DNA from: Halomonas sp. M20
GTDB lineage: Bacteria; Pseudomonadota; Gammaproteobacteria; Pseudomonadales; Halomonadaceae
Reading direction: 5' to 3'
DNA: 64,000 nt
Assembly: GCF_020622265.1 (NCBI RefSeq)
Contig: NZ_JACNMQ010000003.1
Location: 62,001 to 126,000 of the forward strand
How positions within the stretch are numbered: position 1 is the first letter of the stretch; each line of letters opens with the position of its first letter. Made by a program: the position numbers and the translations under genes. The notes beneath the pieces were generated by a model. That model was not told where the DNA came from and did not search any database. It worked only from the letters and a program-made list of their open reading frames with translations. Shown one piece after another: positions 42,409 to 49,421 of this stretch.

Positions 42409-43080
42409 ATGGAACATGAGAACTCATTAATCCTTCTAGTAACTGACTGTAACCCACAGTCTCAGCTCTTCATGGATTACATCGCTGAGCAGCTTGACTG
42501 TCAGATCACTGCAGTCAGCCCCCACGACTCAGTCGACAACCTAGAAAACGATAGTATTCTGGTACTACTCGATGCGGATCACGTCGATGAGAGCAGTATG
42601 CAACAGTGGCATGGCCGTGCCTCAGAGCGTCAGTCCATGATTCTTGCTGCTTTCAATCTACGCGATGAAGATCATGCGGCGGACGTGCTCGCATCACTTC
42701 ATTTACAGGGCGTATTTTATCGTCGCGATAGCCTGCAGCTGATCTGCAAGGGTATTGGCGCGTTACTCGAAGGCGATTTGTGGATGTCGCGTTCGCTGAT
42801 GACCCGGTTGATTGAGTTCTACCGCCGGCAGCAGCTCAATGCTTATCGGCCAGTCTGTGGGCTTACTCACCGCGAACTCGAAATTATCGGTCTGCTGGGC
42901 TCTGGGGCATCCAACACCGAGATTGCCGACAAGCTGTTCGTTAGCGAACATACGGTGAAGTCGCACCTTTACAATATCTTTCGCAAGATCAAGGTACACA
43001 ACCGTATTCAGGCCATGAACTGGGCACGTCAAAATCTAGGTGCTCCGCCTCCTACTCATCAGAAATCTTCAAGACGCTGA
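42409..43080 (+). CDS. CsgD/VpsT-type LuxR-family regulator with W-M-S-R motif
   Basis: A 223-residue regulator. Residues 1-120 form a degenerate receiver-like domain (L-L-V-T-D-C-N-P-Q-S-Q at the start; L-V-L-L-D-A-D in the middle). W-M-S-R at 125-128 fits the W-[F/L/M]-[T/S]-R motif through which VpsT binds c-di-GMP. The LuxR helix-turn-helix occupies 150-205 (L-T-H-R-E-L-E-I-I, I-A-D-K-L-F-V-S-E-H-T-V-K-S-H). Members of this group switch on biofilm matrix genes. The upstream dyads may be autoregulatory. It lies beside the sigma-54 activator and matrix operon. Confidence 0.85.
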   Translation: MEHENSLILLVTDCNPQSQLFMDYIAEQLDCQITAVSPHDSVDNLENDSILVLLDADHVDESSMQQWHGRASERQSMILAAFNLRDEDHAADVLASLHLQGVFYRRDSLQLICKGIGALLEGDLWMSRSLMTRLIEFYRRQQLNAYRPVCGLTHRELEIIGLLGSGASNTEIADKLFVSEHTVKSHLYNIFRKIKVHNRIQAMNWARQNLGAPPPTHQKSSRR

Positions 43081-43829: not shown

Positions 43830-45221
43830 ATGGATACATCTAAAGCTCTACTGATTGTTGATAGACCACCACTTGATGCTAGAAGGATATCTCATGAAAT
43901 GAGGGCTTGTGGCTGGGTGGTTCATCATGTGGACGATTTACACCAGGTTTTAGCGCTTGCAAAATACACTCTTCCTGCTGTTGGCCTGCTTTATTTTTCG
44001 TTAGAAAACCTTCCTAAAACCATTGATATCGAGAATATCATCGCGGGTGATCATAGAAAGTGGATCGCATTGATCGATCAGGAACCTCATGAAAACACTA
44101 TCCTGAGTCGACTATTAGAAAACCTTTTCTTCGCTTATCATGTCTTGCCCATTGAGCAACAACAACTCGACTTTCTTCTTAAGCATGCGCTTAGCATGGT
44201 ATGCCTAGGTGCAAGAAATACGTTTGACGACACATGCAATAAAAAACATCATGATCATGAAATTATCGGGTCTTCGCCAACCATCAATAAGCTTTATAGA
44301 ATTATCGATAAAGTGGCCGATGTCGATGCATCTATCTACATCAGCGGGGAATCCGGTACAGGCAAAGAATTGGCAGCTCGCGCTATCCATGAGAGATCTA
44401 CACGAGCCAAGAATCCATTCGTCGCCGTCAATTGCGGAGCCATTCCGAGTAATTTAGTTCAATCGGAGCTCTTCGGCTATGAGAAGGGTGCTTTCACAGG
44501 TGCCGGGCATCGAAAAATGGGGCGTATCGAAGCTGCGGCGGAAGGGACTCTATTTCTAGATGAAATAGGTGACCTACCCACTGAAATACAGGTCAACCTT
44601 TTACGCTTTATTGAGGATAAGAAGGTTCAGCGTATTGGTAGCCTTGATGAGGTATCTGTCAATGTTCGTATACTTTGTGCAACACATAGCAATCTTGAAA
44701 ATGCTGTAAAGAATGGGAATTTTCGAGAGGATTTATATCATCGCCTCAATGTCATCCGAATCGACATGCCGCCTCTACGCGAACGAGTCGATGATATCGA
44801 GTTACTGGCAAACTATTTCTTCGACAAGTTCCTGGACAGGAAATCAATGACAGTTCGAGCCTTCAGTCACAATGCACTCATCTTGCTAAGACAATATCAC
44901 TGGCCGGGCAATATACGTGAGCTTATCAATCGTATTCGCCGTGCCATGATACTTTGCGAAAACCGATTGATCAGGCCCATCGATCTTGGTTTGGAACGAC
45001 GCCACTATTTTCGCCATTCGTTGTCTCTTGAAAAAGCTCGTAATATTGCAGAACACGATGTAATACAGGCGGCGTTGGCACGTAACAAGAGTAATATTCA
45101 GCTTACTGCTAAAGATCTTGGTGTTTCTCGAGTAACGCTTTACCGCTTGATCGACAAGCATGGTATCCACCATCGCAGTTGTAATAAAGAGTTAATTCAG
45201 CCTATGAGTGTCGCAAAATAA
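43830..45221 (+). CDS. VpsR-like sigma-54-dependent activator
   Basis: A 463-residue protein. Residues 1-125 are a receiver-like domain without the usual aspartate pocket: the acidic pair is D-R and the phospho-acceptor strand reads V-G-L-L-Y-F-S, so phosphorylation is unlikely. The AAA+ domain has Walker A G-E-S-G-T-G-K at 173-179, the sigma-54 contact loop G-A-F-T-G-A at 220-225 and Walker B L-F-L-D-E-I. A Fis-type helix-turn-helix ends the protein. VpsR in Vibrio has this design and senses c-di-GMP. The ATG at 43830 has a GAGG site; the beta-barrel gene follows after 40 bases. Confidence 0.85.
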
Positions 45222-45261: not shown

Positions 45262-46335
45262 ATGAAAAAAATTCGCCTAAGAACCGCTATCTTCATTATT
45301 ACAACAACATTGGTTACTGACACCGTCTTGGCGCAACAGGAAACCAGTCAGCAGGCACCAGTAGGGCAAGCACCGCCGGCAACACCCACCACACCGCCGG
45401 AAGTACGCGGGGTGCCCTCGGACATAGGCGGTGTACTGACACCCAAAGGCCGGCTGGTTCTGGAACCAGCGTTGCAATATTCCCATTCCAGCGTGAATCG
45501 AGTGACGTTCCGTGGCATCGAGATTCTCAGCACCTTGCTGATTGGAGTCTTCGATATCGAGGATGCGGATCGTGATACCTGGACCGCGTCGGTGACTGGC
45601 CGGCTGGGTATCACCGATCGTCTCGAGTTCGAGATGAAGGTCCCTTATGTCTATCGGGACGACACCCTCAATGCGGCAGTTGCCGACGGTGAAGGCACCA
45701 ATATTGTTCGTGGTATTTCCAGTGATGGGCTAGGAGACATCGAGCTGGCGACTCACTATCAGATCAATGATGGACGCGATGGCTGGCCTTATTTCATCGG
45801 CAATTTGCGCTACAAGACAGTGACCGGTGAAGGACCCTTCGATGTCTCGCGGGATGCCGACGGTATCGAACAGGAGCTGGCGACGGGATCGGGATTTCAC
45901 TCCATCGAGCCGAGTCTGACCATACTTTATCCTTCCGAGCCGGCGGTATTCTTTGCCAACGTAGGCTATCTATTCAACCTGAAGGATGATGTCGATGAAC
46001 GTGTCGGTCCTGTCGATGTTGGCGAAGTCGATCCTGGCGACGCACTCCGTTTAAGTTTTGGCATGGCCTATTCGATCAATGAAAGGGCCGCTTTTACCCT
46101 GGGTTTCAAGAACGATTTCATCGACGAGACGGAAACCGAGCTTCTCGATGTCACTACCGGGGCGTCTTCACGCCAGGAGTCCAGTACTCTCAACGTGGGC
46201 GCCTTGCTGTTGGGCTGGTCCTATCAGGTCAATCGGGACACTGCCCTCAATCTCGCTCTGGAACTCGGAGTAACGGAGGACGCTCCGGATACCTTGCTGA
46301 CACTCCGTGTTCCGTTCGGTATGAACGCTTTTTAA
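45262..46335 (+). CDS. Outer-membrane beta-barrel protein of the matrix locus
   Basis: A 357-residue exported protein. The signal peptide ends near V-L-A at 24, followed by a Gln/Pro/Thr-rich linker (25-50). The rest consists of alternating beta strands such as G-R-L-V-L-E-P-A-L-Q-Y-S-H and ends in a C-terminal Phe, the signature for outer-membrane insertion. It resembles the Phenol_MetA_deg/transporter barrel type. By analogy with FapF, an export pore for matrix subunits is plausible but unproven. It lies 40 bases after the sigma-54 activator on the same strand and converges on the four-gene operon. Confidence 0.75.
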   Translation: MKKIRLRTAIFIITTTLVTDTVLAQQETSQQAPVGQAPPATPTTPPEVRGVPSDIGGVLTPKGRLVLEPALQYSHSSVNRVTFRGIEILSTLLIGVFDIEDADRDTWTASVTGRLGITDRLEFEMKVPYVYRDDTLNAAVADGEGTNIVRGISSDGLGDIELATHYQINDGRDGWPYFIGNLRYKTVTGEGPFDVSRDADGIEQELATGSGFHSIEPSLTILYPSEPAVFFANVGYLFNLKDDVDERVGPVDVGEVDPGDALRLSFGMAYSINERAAFTLGFKNDFIDETETELLDVTTGASSRQESSTLNVGALLLGWSYQVNRDTALNLALELGVTEDAPDTLLTLRVPFGMNAF

Positions 46336-46363
46336 CCGATAACGGAATGGAAGGGGGGCCGAG

Positions 46364-46396
46364 CGGAGAGATCGCCGACAGCGACTCTCCGTTATC
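46364..46396. terminator. Bidirectional hairpin between the barrel gene and the convergent operon
   Basis: CGGAGAG at 46364-46370 pairs with CTCTCCG at 46385-46391, with an inner TCGC/GCGA pair. A wider GATAACGGA/TCCGTTATC inverted repeat encloses it. It lies between two convergent stops, fitting termination of both transcripts. Confidence 0.65.
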
Positions 46397-46405
46397 TAGG
46401 TGGGG

Positions 46406-47104
46406 CTAATAGTTCAGGGAATTGACAATCCTTGAGCGCACCTGAGCTGCGCGAAGGGCGTCCATGTTGTGGACATCCAGTCGGATATCAAGCTGCTGGC
46501 GGATATCACGCCCCGAGGCGTTACTGATGACTGCACTCATTATCGCGTCCTGGGTAAGGTTATGCAGTGCCGCGGAGAAACCCTTGGGGTCCTGCACCAC
46601 CCATCCGGATAGATTCTTCAACCCTGGCACACTGACGCTCTCAGGGGTTGTCTCGATGATAGACTTGCCGGTGGCGGGGCCCACCTGGGTGATCTCTCGC
46701 CGATCGGTCGCTCCACGAAGGTGTCTAGTGTTTTCGAGAGTCTGCGAAACGATATTCTCTCCGGCGCGGGTGATGTTCATCACGGTTTCCAAACGGATAT
46801 CATCGATCATCGTGCGAAGCGTCGCGCCGAAACTCATATCGATCCCCCCAGCGGTGAAACCGCCGCGCAGATCCTCCAACGCGGTCTCTTCGATGATTTC
46901 AGCGTCGGCAAAGAGCGGACCGACTATCCTGGTCATGGCAGGTCTGGCCACGACCGGGCTGGCGGCTTCATAAAGCAGGCGATTCCCTTGGTTATCCCCC
47001 AAGCCCAAATCGGCCACTGCGCCCAATGAACTCGATGCAAAGAACCCTGCCATCACGAAGGCTCCGCAGACGATCGGTCCAGAACATCTTCTTGTTATGT
47101 TCAT
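46406..47104 (-). CDS. Secreted protein with L-R-G-G-F leader-like motif (matrix operon gene 4)
   Basis: A 232-residue exported protein of no family that I recognise. A signal peptide covers residues 1 to about 29. The segment A-L-E-D-L-R-G-G-F at 75-83 resembles double-glycine leader cleavage sites. It is followed by a beta-type stretch (G-I-D-M-S-F-G-A) and a C-terminal part with I-R-Q-Q-L-D-I-R-L-D-V-H-N-M. It is the last gene of the operon, 20 bases after the C39-like peptidase gene, which suggests it may be processed by that peptidase. A GGAG site precedes the ATG. Confidence 0.75.
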   Translation of the reverse strand: MNITRRCSGPIVCGAFVMAGFFASSSLGAVADLGLGDNQGNRLLYEAASPVVARPAMTRIVGPLFADAEIIEETALEDLRGGFTAGGIDMSFGATLRTMIDDIRLETVMNITRAGENIVSQTLENTRHLRGATDRREITQVGPATGKSIIETTPESVSVPGLKNLSGWVVQDPKGFSAALHNLTQDAIMSAVISNASGRDIRQQLDIRLDVHNMDALRAAQVRSRIVNSLNY

Positions 47105-47124
47105 GACCTTGCTCCGTAATAGAA

Positions 47125-47832
47125 TTATTTCGTCAATTCGTTGGTGGCAGGTAACGTCAACAACATGGTACTTACCCCCGCCCGACTAATGCCTTGCTTC
47201 AGCGGAGAATCGGGCCGAACACGCCAATCCTGCTCACTGTTGAAATTTTGCCTGGCCAACTCAACGTCCGCACGAGCACCCAGTACCACCCCATTCCACA
47301 TCGCCTCGAAGCGGGCTTTTTCGACGACGACGGTACCTACCGCCGGATCGCCGACCAAGATCTCATCCTCGTCGGTGCCTTTGATGACCACAAAATGCTT
47401 GTAGCCTTGGGTATTGATCAAGGTGATGGCGGGCACGCCTATCTTGATGAAGTCATCCAGTGCGATCCTGAAGCCATCGGCATTCAATCCTCGATAATCC
47501 AGATAGCGCTTCATATCCAGCATGGAGAACCCCTGGGCCTGGATCTTGTCTTTCTCGCCTTCCTGATACATGGTCTTGAACACCTCGACTTCCGTGGTCT
47601 CTTGGCCATAGTGATAGGTCAGCAGTGTCGCCACCGCCGCCGAACCACAGCTGAAGTCATATTGCTGCCTGATGACGTTGTCCCAGCGCATTTCCTTGAG
47701 ACTCTTGGCTTCGACATTGAAGCTACCGAAGGGTCCGGCGACCGAGACTGCTCCTGCCTGGGCATCGTCAGGCTCCATCGCCCAGACAAACATCATGAGA
47801 ACCGCCATGAACGAAATAGAAGGTTGTCGCAT
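47125..47832 (-). CDS. Periplasmic C39-like cysteine peptidase (matrix operon gene 3)
   Basis: A 235-residue protein with a signal peptide (1-26). The papain-like C39 features are Q-Q-Y-D-F-S-C-G-S-A-A-V-A-T-L-L with Cys62, K-H-F-V-V-I-K-G with His146 and V-G-D-P-A-V-G with Asp162. The spacing fits an active enzyme. Unlike bacteriocin C39 domains it is not fused to an ABC transporter and is exported. FapD of Pseudomonas amyloid operons is a peptidase of this type. The ATG at 47832 has an AGAGG site. The frame extends 16 codons further upstream. Confidence 0.85.
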   Translation of the reverse strand: MRQPSISFMAVLMMFVWAMEPDDAQAGAVSVAGPFGSFNVEAKSLKEMRWDNVIRQQYDFSCGSAAVATLLTYHYGQETTEVEVFKTMYQEGEKDKIQAQGFSMLDMKRYLDYRGLNADGFRIALDDFIKIGVPAITLINTQGYKHFVVIKGTDEDEILVGDPAVGTVVVEKARFEAMWNGVVLGARADVELARQNFNSEQDWRVRPDSPLKQGISRAGVSTMLLTLPATNELTK

Positions 47833-47891
47833 AATCGCCTCTTCTAGCACGAACACCATGCTCGGCAAACGTAGCGTCATCTATCGCAATG

Positions 47892-48296
47892 CTATTCCGC
47901 GAGATAGATACTGATGCCTACGGCACTGGTGACGGCATTGTTATGCCCCGTCATGATATTGAAGAGTCCTACACCATCGAAGCTGTCCAGGGCATGGGAT
48001 TCGATGGTGATGGGGCCCGATATCACGCTTCCCGCATTGACCGAGTTGCCGCTAGCGGTTGCCTTTAGATCCTGCAAGCTTTGCACGTTGATGAGATTGA
48101 TGTTTTCGCGTCCGCGCAATTGCGCCAACTCGTCGCTACCGAGTCCATCCAGTGTGTTGAAGGGGCTGGCACGCAGCGAGGAGTTATCGTCGGTTTCGGC
48201 GACGGCCCTTTCCAGCGCGAAAAGCATAGGAAGCGCCCACGTCACGACGAGGACAAGACGCCACATTCGGTGCTGCAATCCAGTAGATACGGCCAT
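47892..48296 (-). CDS. Small secreted protein, short paralogue of the glycine-rich protein (matrix operon gene 2)
   Basis: A 134-residue protein. The signal peptide ends around A-V-A-E at 31-34. L-G-S-D-E-L-A-Q-L-R-G-R at 52-63 resembles a C39-type leader end. It shares two motifs with the glycine-rich protein: Q-x-L-x4-S-G-x-S-V (75-86) and G-V-x3-N-x2-T-G-x2-N-x4-A-x2-I (108-128). The second looks like the Asn-rich beta repeats of amyloid subunits. I do not recognise a named family. A GGAG site precedes the ATG. It lies 78 bases after the glycine-rich gene, with a strong hairpin in the gap. Confidence 0.75.
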   Translation of the reverse strand: MAVSTGLQHRMWRLVLVVTWALPMLFALERAVAETDDNSSLRASPFNTLDGLGSDELAQLRGRENINLINVQSLQDLKATASGNSVNAGSVISGPITIESHALDSFDGVGLFNIMTGHNNAVTSAVGISIYLAE

Positions 48297-48326
48297 GGCG
48301 ATGTACTCCTAAACATGCCCGAAAGT

Positions 48327-48351
48327 GCCGGCGAACGCTGTGTTCGCCGGC
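48327..48351 (-). promoter_or_regulatory. Intercistronic hairpin in the matrix operon
   Basis: GCCGGCGAAC and GTTCGCCGGC form a perfect 10-bp stem with a 5-base loop between genes 1 and 2. There is no T-run after it on the minus strand. It probably protects the upstream message from 3' decay or partly terminates, giving more of the glycine-rich product than of the downstream genes. Confidence 0.65.
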
Positions 48352-48374
48352 TCCGGTTAGAATGACCGGTCAGG

Positions 48375-49421
48375 TTAGTTACCGATAGTCAACCCGCTGT
48401 GGGCGGCGATGTTGGTCGCTGCCAATTGCGAGTTATAGAGACCGGTTGACAGGTTCATGTTGGCAACGCCACCGAAGGCGCCCACCGACATGTTGGCTTG
48501 GCCGGTATAGAGCGTACCGCCGGCACCATCGCCGCCGTCCGCACCGTCCCCGCCATTGCCGGCATTGGCCGTTGCATTGCCACCGACACCATTGCCCGCA
48601 CCACCATCACCACCCTCGCCGTAGGAGTAGCCGCCATCACCGGATTCGGCATAGCCACCGTCACCCCCATAGCCGCCGTCACCGCCATAGCCACCATCAC
48701 CACCATAGCCACCATCACCGCCATCACCGCCCTCGCCATAGCCAGCGTCACCGCCATACCTCTTAGAGTTGCCTCCTTCACCATAACCACCATCACCGCC
48801 ATAGCCACCATTACCGCCATAGCCACCATCGCCTCCATAGCCTCCATCACCGCCATTACCGCCATAGGCATAGGAGTCGCCACCATCGCCACCCTCACCA
48901 TTGCCACCATTGCCGCCATATCCCACGCCCAAAGAAGCAGCATTCGCACTGCCGCCGGAGGCACCGTTACCGCCTTTAGCGCCAGCACCGGCATAGACAT
49001 AGACGCTGGCACCCGACACGCTAGAGTTCAGCTGCTGGTGAGCAACAACACTCACGGTGGAATTATGGGAATTACTCATGGCCCAGGCGTCACCACCATT
49101 GCCGGTGCTACCGCCGTAACCACCCCTGCCGCCGTAACCGCCCATGCCATTGCCGGTGCCGCGCCCCTCAGCATCACCCGAAGTGGCTTCGCTGTAGAAG
49201 TCGTTACGATCGCTATGATCATCGGCACGTCCATAGGTCTTGGAGTAGGCGTCGCTATACCCTTTGCCATACCCCTTGCCGTAACCATCACCCCCATAAC
49301 CACCGTTACCGCCGGTGGAATAACCACTGTTGCCCCCGGTGGCGGTGGCATCCGCGTTGGCGGTAGATACGGCTAGCGCCAAGGCTAATACCGAGAATCC
49401 ACTTATTACGTACTTATTCAT
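48375..49421 (-). CDS. Secreted glycine-rich repeat protein, candidate matrix subunit (matrix operon gene 1)
   Basis: A 348-residue exported protein with a signal peptide ending at A-N-A (21-23). Residues 24-110 are Gly/Tyr/Asp-rich with G-Y-G-K-G-Y repeats. Residues 129-140 carry Q-x-L-x4-S-G-x-S-V. Residues about 146-302 are near-perfect G-G-D-G-G-Y repeats, and 318-338 carry G-V-x3-N-x2-T-G-x2-N-x4-A-x2-I, as in the next gene. No cysteine, no enzyme motif. The repeat is reminiscent of elastic or amyloid-like structural proteins; calcium binding by the Asp residues is possible but the RTX nonapeptide is not present. The ATG at 49421 has a GGAG site. Confidence 0.8.
   Translation of the reverse strand: MNKYVISGFSVLALALAVSTANADATATGGNSGYSTGGNGGYGGDGYGKGYGKGYSDAYSKTYGRADDHSDRNDFYSEATSGDAEGRGTGNGMGGYGGRGGYGGSTGNGGDAWAMSNSHNSTVSVVAHQQLNSSVSGASVYVYAGAGAKGGNGASGGSANAASLGVGYGGNGGNGEGGDGGDSYAYGGNGGDGGYGGDGGYGGNGGYGGDGGYGEGGNSKRYGGDAGYGEGGDGGDGGYGGDGGYGGDGGYGGDGGYAESGDGGYSYGEGGDGGAGNGVGGNATANAGNGGDGADGGDGAGGTLYTGQANMSVGAFGGVANMNLSTGLYNSQLAATNIAAHSGLTIGN
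48600..48960. repeat. Tandem DNA repeats encoding the glycine-rich block
   Basis: Tandem units of about 18 bases of the form CCACCATCACCGCCATAG and variants recur through the middle of the glycine-rich gene. Each unit encodes one G-G-D-G-G-Y hexapeptide. Codons differ slightly between units, so the array is not freshly duplicated. Repeat number is likely to vary between strains. Confidence 0.8.

Follow-up and report, generated by a model that had tools for sequence, protein, structure and literature searches.

How does a bacterial locus that combines a Fap-like peptidase and outer-membrane channel with a glycine-rich protein select and mature what it exports? The question is raised by five genes of Halomonas sp. 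M20 (assembly GCF_020622265.1) located on contig NZ_JACNMQ010000003.1, in a stretch of 64,000 nt (bases 62,001-126,000 of the forward strand) hereafter called the window, along which all positions are counted. An earlier note on this DNA had described a barrel gene converging on a four-gene minus-strand operon and likened the whole to the Fap amyloid export system; the five genes, their coordinates, their strands and this arrangement are all present as claimed. From comparisons of their sequences, we read the locus as a divergent Fap-type secretion system in which the minor subunits would be cut at a leader and the glycine-rich protein would be exported uncut, and we assign to this reading a probability of about 0.65. 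The features on which it relies are the following.

45262-46335, plus strand: BARREL, FapF-type outer-membrane beta-barrel (NCBIfam FapF, PDB 5o67)
46406-47104, minus strand: LRGGF, secreted, putative FapE-like minor subunit with a predicted double-glycine-type leader (motif, and AlphaFold2 fold after the leader)
46859-46894, minus strand: predicted C39 leader motif of LRGGF, with Ile71 at -12, Leu76 at -7, Leu79 at -4, then Arg80-Gly81-Gly82 and a predicted cut before Phe83
47125-47880, minus strand: C39, exported FapD-type cysteine peptidase, starting at 47880 or 47832 (Pfam, NCBIfam)
47892-48296, minus strand: SHORT, small secreted protein with a predicted double-glycine-type leader and a C-terminal Fap-like segment
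48108-48143, minus strand: predicted C39 leader motif of SHORT, with Leu52 at -12, Leu57 at -7, Leu60 at -4, then Arg61-Gly62-Arg63
48375-49421, minus strand: GLYR, Gly-rich (GGX) secreted protein, putative major subunit, without leader motif
48378-48485, minus strand: conserved block at the end of GLYR, related to the SHORT C-terminus, perhaps also to the repeat of FapB/FapC
49011-49097, minus strand: second conserved block of GLYR (GGDAWAMSNSHNSTVSVVAHQQL...VSG)

Signal peptides were called by eye and with a simple hydrophobic-run rule rather than a dedicated predictor, and gene starts are guesses. The operon GLYR, SHORT, C39, LRGGF lies on the minus strand, with intergenic gaps of 20, 11 and 78 bases counted from the LRGGF end; the barrel gene points toward it, and the convergent stop codons of the barrel and LRGGF genes are 70 bases apart.

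The peptidase and the barrel are homologues of FapD and FapF

Profile comparisons indicate that the two components of the export machine are homologues of Fap proteins, beyond mere analogues. The peptidase matches Pfam Peptidase_C39 (E-value (E) 1.1e-21) and NCBIfam FapD (E 3.5e-43, 147 bits for a curated equivalog cut-off of 330), and the barrel matches NCBIfam FapF (E 3.8e-44, 151 bits for a curated cut-off of 700) and aligns over residues 61-352 with the solved FapF structure 5o67 (E 4.7e-33). The Fap analogy put forward in the earlier note is therefore supported and, for these two proteins, extends to homology. The catalytic Cys62, His146 and Asp162 that it had named are right; they are numbered from the shorter start, correspond to Cys78, His162 and Asp178 from the longer one, and are invariant, as is Gln72, in an alignment of 16 sequences. 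The N-terminus of the peptidase carries a hydrophobic segment, judged by eye.

In the M20 genome, two further C39 matches fall in open reading frames (ORFs) whose lengths, 756 and 760 residues, are those of ATP-binding cassette (ABC) transporters, and the peptidase search found no second FapD-like peptidase at E 1e-10. The peptidase is present in three of the 14 genomes that are M20 itself or of the same genus (that of the window and two others), and its closest named relative, among the matches listed, is that of Modicisalibacter ilicicola (75% identity). A relative of the locus in Croceicoccus (L164) is annotated just as “C39 family peptidase”, “transporter” and hypothetical proteins, a sparse annotation that may be due to FapD and FapF scores falling under the curated cut-offs.

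The N-terminus of the barrel consists of a short Pro/Gln-rich linker devoid of a coiled coil. By our own simple heptad rule, applied to the region ahead of the barrel domain, a coiled coil was found in 4/4 Pseudomonas-like FapF and 33/54 other type A barrels (the cassette type of the window, defined below), and in none of 22 Halomonadaceae type A barrels and none of 18 Halomonadaceae FapF. The Halomonadaceae barrels of both systems, that of the window (45262-45444) included, are thus without an element reported as vital for secretion of FapC by Pseudomonas FapF (PMC6173800), and because of this difference the gating of the Halomonadaceae channel may differ from that of Pseudomonas.

A conserved cassette distinct from the canonical fap operon

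Searching 151 genomes of the family with the peptidase returned matches in 45, which split into a group of 58-76% identity (the window's own aside), here called type A, and a distant group of 30-39%; 20 type A and 17 distant-group stretches were fetched for comparison. Barrel, LRGGF, C39 and SHORT follow each other in the order of the window in 20/20 type A stretches. Since orthologues of LRGGF and SHORT (located by tblastn) and a Gly-rich ORF occur in all 20, the five ORFs are real genes and not chance ORFs. In separate searches of the 151 genomes, using for LRGGF a profile (A2) built from the window and 16 of the 31 LRGGF loci, the type A barrel was found in 31, LRGGF in 31 and the type A C39 in 32. 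Barrel, LRGGF and C39 are adjacent in all 31 shared genomes, as compared by eye from their coordinates, and the 32nd C39 is a peptidase cut at base 1 of its contig. The earlier note had proposed that its idea would fall if the barrel or peptidase belonged to an unrelated pathway or if the genes did not co-occur; neither is the case, because the homology search led to FapF and FapD and to no unrelated pathway, and the genes do co-occur.

The distant group differs in nature. In 15 of its 17 stretches FapB-, FapC-, FapD- and FapE-like genes lie on one strand, 14 of the 15 also holding FapF and 12 FapA (the FapC of L055 has three repeats), while L049 and L050 are of another kind. Four contigs (L055, L056, L065 and L070) hold the type A cassette and fapABCDEF a few kb apart, and both systems have VpsR-like genes next to them. 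A peptidase tree of 87 rows, which includes 10 of the 21 Halomonadaceae type A loci, sets type A (71 rows; Shimodaira-Hasegawa-like approximate likelihood ratio (SH-aLRT) support 95) apart from canonical FapD (14 rows, support 99), two Acidithiobacillus peptidases grouping with type A. As the family also holds fap operons and the peptidases form two clades, the type A cassette is not canonical Fap. In one genome (L046) the set of FapA-, FapB-, FapC-, FapD- and FapE-like genes occurs twice, the two sets being neighbours.

Relatives of this C39-barrel locus are widely distributed among the Proteobacteria. Among the named genomes of the best 80 loci retrieved with the peptidase profile, Halomonadaceae come first, followed by Nitrococcus, Pelagibius, Kiloniellaceae, Thioalkalivibrio and Ectothiorhodospira; Photobacterium, Lysobacter, Luteibacter, Aromatoleum, Massilia, Acidithiobacillus, Geotalea and others are also represented. 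A barrel is present in 75 of these 80 loci, a proportion that is not a free estimate as the loci were drawn by their peptidase, and the five loci without it sit on short or cut contigs. The sets L051-L070 and L071-L150 overlap and are not independent. Co-localised fapD and fapF homologues had earlier been noted in five further phyla by Rouse and colleagues (PMC6173800). A FapE search of 244 genomes of the order yielded only five matches at 1e-6 and therefore probably misses most FapE.

A predicted double-glycine-type leader behind the signal peptide

After a signal-peptide-like hydrophobic segment, LRGGF and SHORT carry a motif composed of a hydrophobic residue, four residues, Leu or Met, two residues, a hydrophobic residue, Arg, Gly, and Gly or Arg. 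According to a review, C39 peptidases recognise leaders that are hydrophobic at -12, -7 and -4, have G at -2 and end in GG, GA or GS (PMC10885120). With ORFs called mechanically, spurious ones included, the strict GG form of the motif was found in 42/79 downstream and 15/78 upstream neighbours of the peptidase, compared with 16 of 1453 among the remaining signal-bearing ORFs in these loci (shuffled sequences: 0.013, 0.013 and 0.004, respectively), and a loose form in 55/79, 45/78 and 114/1453 (shuffled: 0.111, 0.074 and 0.069). The pattern [LM]xxxRGG[FYLM] is present in 62 of 71 genes downstream of the peptidase; the nine misses are five genes with RAGF, two taken in wrong frames (L104 and L113, where the motif shows in other reading frames), L123 (RGAGF) and L140.

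The alignment of LRGGF from the window with 57 of these 71 genes (A4; 58 sequences, 15% mean column identity) has Arg80 and Gly82 as its sole invariant columns and Gly81 and Gly93 as the sole nearly invariant ones, an invariance that holds for the rows kept, as 14 genes, two of them without RGG, were omitted (L104 and L113 for their frames, L123, L140, and ten others that were long or dropped to limit the size of the set). Position -12 was not part of the motif search, yet its residue is one of L, I, V, M and F in 56/58 LRGGF, 21/21 Halomonadaceae SHORT, 22/22 FapE and 16/16 FapA, and position -11 never is (the position table covers 22 of the 24 FapE, 16 of the 18 FapA and 18 of the 20 FapB examined). 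Position -7 was fixed by the search, being hydrophobic in 58/58 LRGGF and likewise in SHORT, and -4 is hydrophobic in a fraction of 0.78 of LRGGF and 0.57 (12/21) of SHORT. At the end of the motif, where the search required them, LRGGF proteins have G at -1 (58/58) and G (53) or A (5) at -2; SHORT, FapE and FapA have Arg or Lys at -1. No leader motif was found in GLYR in any of the 20 type A loci.

The motif extends to canonical Fap. Four genomes hold fap operons resembling those of Pseudomonas. Their FapE displays IELKD-x-E-[LM]-A-x-LRG[RK]-Y immediately behind the signal peptide, and the motif is missing from such FapB and FapC as were identified there; FapA was not found in these four operons, and the FapA of Halomonadaceae carries the motif. 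By mass spectrometry, FapE alone was reported as fully N-terminally processed, with no peptides from its first ~70 residues (PMC5557850). The motif in FapE accords with this published FapE-only processing, short of proof. The same report calls the target of FapD unclear and states that Fap proteins are without canonical C39 sequences (PMC5557850); our sequence comparisons suggest that the leader motif indicates what FapD cuts.

Once their signal peptides are removed, LRGGF and FapE align over 47 columns (probability 80.6, E 1.3e-5) in sets preselected for the motif (58 of the 71 downstream genes and 22 of the 24 FapE, all motif-bearing); the alignment covers the leader and the start of the mature part, the remainder of the protein being unaligned. 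The AlphaFold2 model of LRGGF, based on the 58 sequences, has a mean predicted local distance difference test score (pLDDT) of 78.7. From residue 91 its ten-residue blocks score 90-96, except for residues 121-140 (78-83) and the very end (86), and the modelled domain of ~145 residues is made of beta strands and a C-terminal helix. A short helix at 73-79 (block score 77) stands directly before Arg80-Gly81-Gly82. Of the structure predictions proposed in the earlier note, that of LRGGF thus gave a folded protein, for which Foldseek found no PDB match at E <= 0.001 (best 0.011, template modelling (TM) score 0.13), and that of GLYR gave no fold. Among eight distant relatives of SHORT or LRGGF searched against Pfam up to E 10, seven matched no family and the eighth matched Big_6 at E 0.17.

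Strings similar to the motif are also carried by FapE of Aeromonas (L162) and by Cupriavidus (L163). In Acinetobacter (L161, 4664-5530), the gene before C39 has MDDAALSAATGQ right after its signal peptide, with the spacing of a double-glycine leader. In L049 (8694-9116) and L050 (10445-10834), small secreted proteins in which a string like the motif is seen by eye (LSSEEMKSTEGA and LSPEEMKQTEGA, respectively) adjoin a divergent C39 peptidase and a shorter barrel, possibly a third C39-barrel type in Halomonadaceae.

Three further candidates were rejected. FapB as a third leader-bearing substrate was dropped since its first repeat, although fitting the -12/-7/-4/-2 spacing, is an ordinary amyloid repeat, and the motif is missing from FapB of the four Pseudomonas-like operons. 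A Gly to Ala covariation at -2 between SHORT (RAREG) and LRGGF (RAGF) in some Halomonadaceae was discarded as the search had picked wrong positions in many rows, signal peptides included, and other loci pair RA in SHORT with RGG in LRGGF. A looser motif in FapC (4/20) was not counted, three of its occurrences lying far within the protein and the fourth on the signal peptide.

The glycine-rich protein and its C-terminal segment

The earlier note had expected a glycine-rich structural subunit unlike those of Fap, and this was borne out: GGX repeats dominate the GLYR of the window, and an ORF with 22-34% Gly lies upstream of SHORT in 20/20 type A loci, one of them frame-broken. GLYR, SHORT and LRGGF have no Pfam match up to E 1 and no NCBIfam match up to E 10. 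AlphaFold2 predicted GLYR as unfolded, with a mean pLDDT of 39.2 and no usable model.

C-terminal profiles were compared by hhalign, with reversed sequences as controls. Those of GLYR and SHORT in Halomonadaceae match at 1.1e-5 (reversed 0.024 and 0.14), and those of the major subunits and SHORT in the distant sets at 3.6e-9 (reversed 0.27 and 0.23); by this comparison GLYR and SHORT have related C-terminal segments. The earlier description of SHORT as a paralogue of GLYR can hold for this segment only. Fap repeats match the pooled set of major subunits at 1.5e-4 (reversed 0.33 and 0.54) and the distant SHORT set at 5.1e-4, reversed controls over both tests ranging from 0.32 to 0.55; split sets give 0.0025 (Halomonadaceae SHORT), 0.0088 (distant major subunits) and 0.024 (GLYR), so that the link of GLYR to Fap repeats appears weak. 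Homology of GLYR with the distant major subunits stays unsupported, because their separate C-terminal profiles match at only 0.26. At most one Fap-like segment, the C-terminal one, is seen in GLYR, and multiple repeats in the style of FapC are not. Full-length profiles of GLYR, SHORT and LRGGF resemble FapA, FapB, FapC and FapE mainly at the N-terminus, in part through the signal peptide.

Among 13 distant loci inspected, several open their operon with a large secreted Gly-, Asn- or Ser-rich protein that occupies the position of GLYR and ends in a block such as GITQVSQNSGANSLTQQQVSVQAHLNLGN. Matches to the GLYR profile itself are few beyond Halomonadaceae (L091, L092, L093, L095 and L150, in the best 80 loci). 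Some loci depart from the simple layout: two tandem GLYR-type genes precede SHORT in L093 and L095 (Pelagibius and a Kiloniellaceae genome), the GLYR frame is broken and ~1.4 kb of extra DNA separates C39 from LRGGF in L066 and L084 (Halomonas socia), and in Photobacterium L114 (6125-7832) the peptidase is preceded by two genes of the major-subunit kind with a short RGG-bearing gene between them.

Neighbouring regulators

Two regulatory genes stand beside the locus:

43833-45221, plus strand: bacterial enhancer-binding protein with a VpsR domain, adjoining the barrel gene (Pfam VpsR E 7.9e-10, Sigma54_activat E 2.9e-69)
42409-43080, plus strand: VpsT/CsgD-type LuxR-family regulator (NCBIfam CsgD E 5.9e-45, VpsT-like_REC E 1.1e-8)

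The CsgD match reaches 153.5 bits for a curated cut-off of 250. The biofilm-type regulators announced by the earlier note are thus found next to the locus, and in the type A set a VpsR-like gene accompanies 20/20 loci (one cut by a contig end) and a VpsT-like gene 14/20.

Comparison with known systems

With Fap, the locus shares a FapD-type C39 bearing a signal peptide, a FapF-type barrel, a putative FapE-like minor subunit and a secreted repetitive major subunit. It differs by a Gly-rich GGX major subunit without the three Fap repeats, the lack of a FapA-like gene, a single short minor subunit, a barrel without coiled coil, RGG instead of RGR in the FapE-like protein, and a peptidase of a separate clade. 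Its barrel gene converges on a four-gene operon, whereas fapABCDEF is a single one-strand operon, although published variants deviate too: Fap surveys include operons without fapA or with a detached fapF, Acidithiobacillus being among the deviating genera (PMC3792158). Among the Acidithiobacillus variants (PMC3792158; PMC10853474), two loci have peptidases of the same clade as the window's, and the barrel is detached and on the other strand; their FapC, with 4-8 repeats (PMC3792158), is unlike GLYR.

Where GG substrates accompany a C39 peptidase and a channel related to FapF, the closest published case is the nap island of Neisseria, where NapP (C39) and NapF (FapF-related) accompany GG-motif substrates (PMC11798529). 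These are small cationic peptides linked to autolysis, and the portion of the account considered here mentions no Gly-rich matrix protein or LRGGF protein (PMC11798529). The C39 and barrel of the window also match NCBIfam FilB and FilC of the Acinetobacter Fil locus, at lower scores than FapD and FapF; in the Acinetobacter stretch L161, unannotated and probably Fil, our profiles find no match in the remaining ORFs. Double-glycine leaders of ABC transporters share the hydrophobic -12, -7 and -4 and the G at -2 (PMC10885120), but in the present locus the leader stands behind a Sec-type signal peptide, and the peptidase is exported as a separate protein instead of forming part of an ABC transporter. 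With curli, the window shares a CsgD-like regulator.

Proposed mechanism and alternative explanations

To judge from their N-termini, all five products would take the Sec route, the barrel serving, by homology to FapF, as exit channel in the outer membrane. SHORT and LRGGF would be minor subunits synthesised as pre-pro-proteins. Loss of the signal peptide would leave each with an amphipathic pro-leader that ends in L-x-x-L-R-G-G or L-x-x-L-R-G-R; the periplasmic C39 would bind the hydrophobic residues of this pro-leader at -12, -7 and -4 and cut after the glycine motif. Once cut, SHORT and LRGGF would be licensed to start or anchor the export and assembly of GLYR, itself uncut. GLYR would be the major exported subunit, with a long hydrated GGX domain and a conserved, possibly Fap-like end that may nucleate or zip the fibre. 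Canonical FapD would act on FapE by the same logic. The product would most likely be a fibre of the cell surface or matrix, controlled by the VpsT/CsgD-like and VpsR-like regulators.

Several observations weigh against this mechanism. The C-terminal block of GLYR matches Fap repeats (0.024) and distant major subunits (0.26) poorly, its model is unfolded, and the triple repeat of FapC is missing; the barrel is without coiled coil, and barrel and C39 score under the curated NCBIfam cut-offs for FapF and FapD. Regarding the cut itself, Arg or Lys at -1 in FapE, FapA and SHORT departs from the canonical GG, GA or GS, the motif in Halomonadaceae FapA sits uneasily with the unprocessed FapA of Rouse 2017, in which peptides were seen throughout FapA-D (PMC5557850), and in L160 the FapE motif ends near residue 40, compared with the ~70 residues without peptides published. 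The genes upstream of the peptidase in distant loci are also variable (strict GG in 15/78, some with QRA or no clear motif), and the FapF linker has been named as another possible FapD target (PMC5557850).

This last possibility, that the peptidase would open or close the channel by cutting the periplasmic linker of the barrel, as Rouse 2017 proposed for FapF, draws on the observation that no FapF linker peptides were seen and that GG/GA occurs there (PMC5557850), and the window barrel has Gly56-Gly57 just ahead of its barrel domain; this pair, however, is without hydrophobic residues at -4 (Asp) and -12 (Pro), in a linker that is short, and we regard such a target as improbable. Docking in place of cutting, where L-x-x-L-R-G would be a recognition site and the peptidase a chaperone or a carrier handing subunits to the barrel, would account for the Arg or Lys found at -1, which C39 cut sites do not usually have, and catalytically inactive C39-like domains are known in type 1 secretion (PMC5557850). 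It nevertheless seems unlikely, as all 16 aligned sequences keep the catalytic Cys, His and Asp, the LRGGF proteins have the full GG, and the C38A mutation of FapD abolished FapC secretion from the Pseudomonas fap operon in E. coli (PMC5557850). Equally concerned with the cut proteins is a Nap-like peptide export, with SHORT and LRGGF as the cargo, maturing into signalling or antagonistic peptides, and GLYR as an accessory. The pairing of C39 and a FapF-related channel with GG-motif peptides in Neisseria (PMC11798529) speaks for it, but the GLYR-type ORF in 20/20 Halomonadaceae loci, the folded domain of ~145 residues modelled for LRGGF, which is no small cationic peptide, and the biofilm-type regulators beside the locus leave it with a slim chance.

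The nature of the product and the novelty of the system raise two other alternatives. The locus could be a fast-evolving fap operon making the usual amyloid fibre, with GLYR as FapC, SHORT as FapB and LRGGF as FapE. The FapD and FapF homology of peptidase and barrel, the LRGGF/FapE alignment in motif-picked sets, the C-terminal segments somewhat like Fap repeats, the deviant operons of published surveys (PMC3792158), and the two Acidithiobacillus peptidases on the type A side of our tree are all in its favour. Yet fapABCDEF exists in the same family and, in four loci, on the same contig, the peptidases form separate clades, the barrel lies on the opposite strand, the cassette is without FapA-like gene and GLYR without triple repeat, so that we hold this explanation to be rather unlikely. 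The other concerns GLYR, which could, anchored by its C-terminal segment, form a hydrated gel of polyglycine-II or elastin type, without cross-beta fibre; that such a protein may form polyglycine-II is an idea that we bring as an assumption. The dominance of GGX repeats, the missing fold in AlphaFold2 and the Gly-, Asn- or Ser-rich nature of the large secreted protein of other lineages agree with a non-amyloid matrix, while the C-terminal blocks of the wider family (QNSG...QQ) resemble Fap repeats when pooled (1.5e-4) and weakly when split. A gel of this kind is a tentative possibility, with the odds somewhat against it. The divergent Fap-type system with leader-cut minor subunits and an uncut GLYR remains the reading that we prefer.

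Significance

The type A cassette is a genuine, conserved branch of the Fap-type secretion systems whose putative major subunit is Gly-rich. We found no name for it, and our searches of an open-licence library showed no description of the cassette or of a FapD leader motif; an earlier description elsewhere is possible. Beyond the earlier note, the analysis adds the double-glycine-type leader, the occurrence of genuine fap operons within this family, sometimes on one contig with the cassette, and the broad distribution of this branch of C39-barrel loci. The locus is chiefly valuable for its leader motif, through which a question left open in the literature can be tested directly: FapD activity is essential for amyloid secretion from the Pseudomonas fap operon in E. 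coli (PMC5557850), and with RGG here and RG[RK] in FapE the question of the FapD target becomes a point-mutation test.

There is, in our estimation, an even chance that FapD-type peptidases across Proteobacteria process minor subunits at a double-glycine leader exposed after Sec export. Such a general two-cut route would run from the Sec signal peptidase to the periplasmic C39 and the FapF-type channel, only the minor, initiating subunits being cut and the bulk matrix protein (Fap repeats, GGX, Asn- or Ser-rich) being interchangeable. The locus also suggests that the C39-barrel machine works as a module that combines with matrix proteins of very different kinds, an idea of interest for the biology of halophile biofilms and for the secretion of designed fibres.

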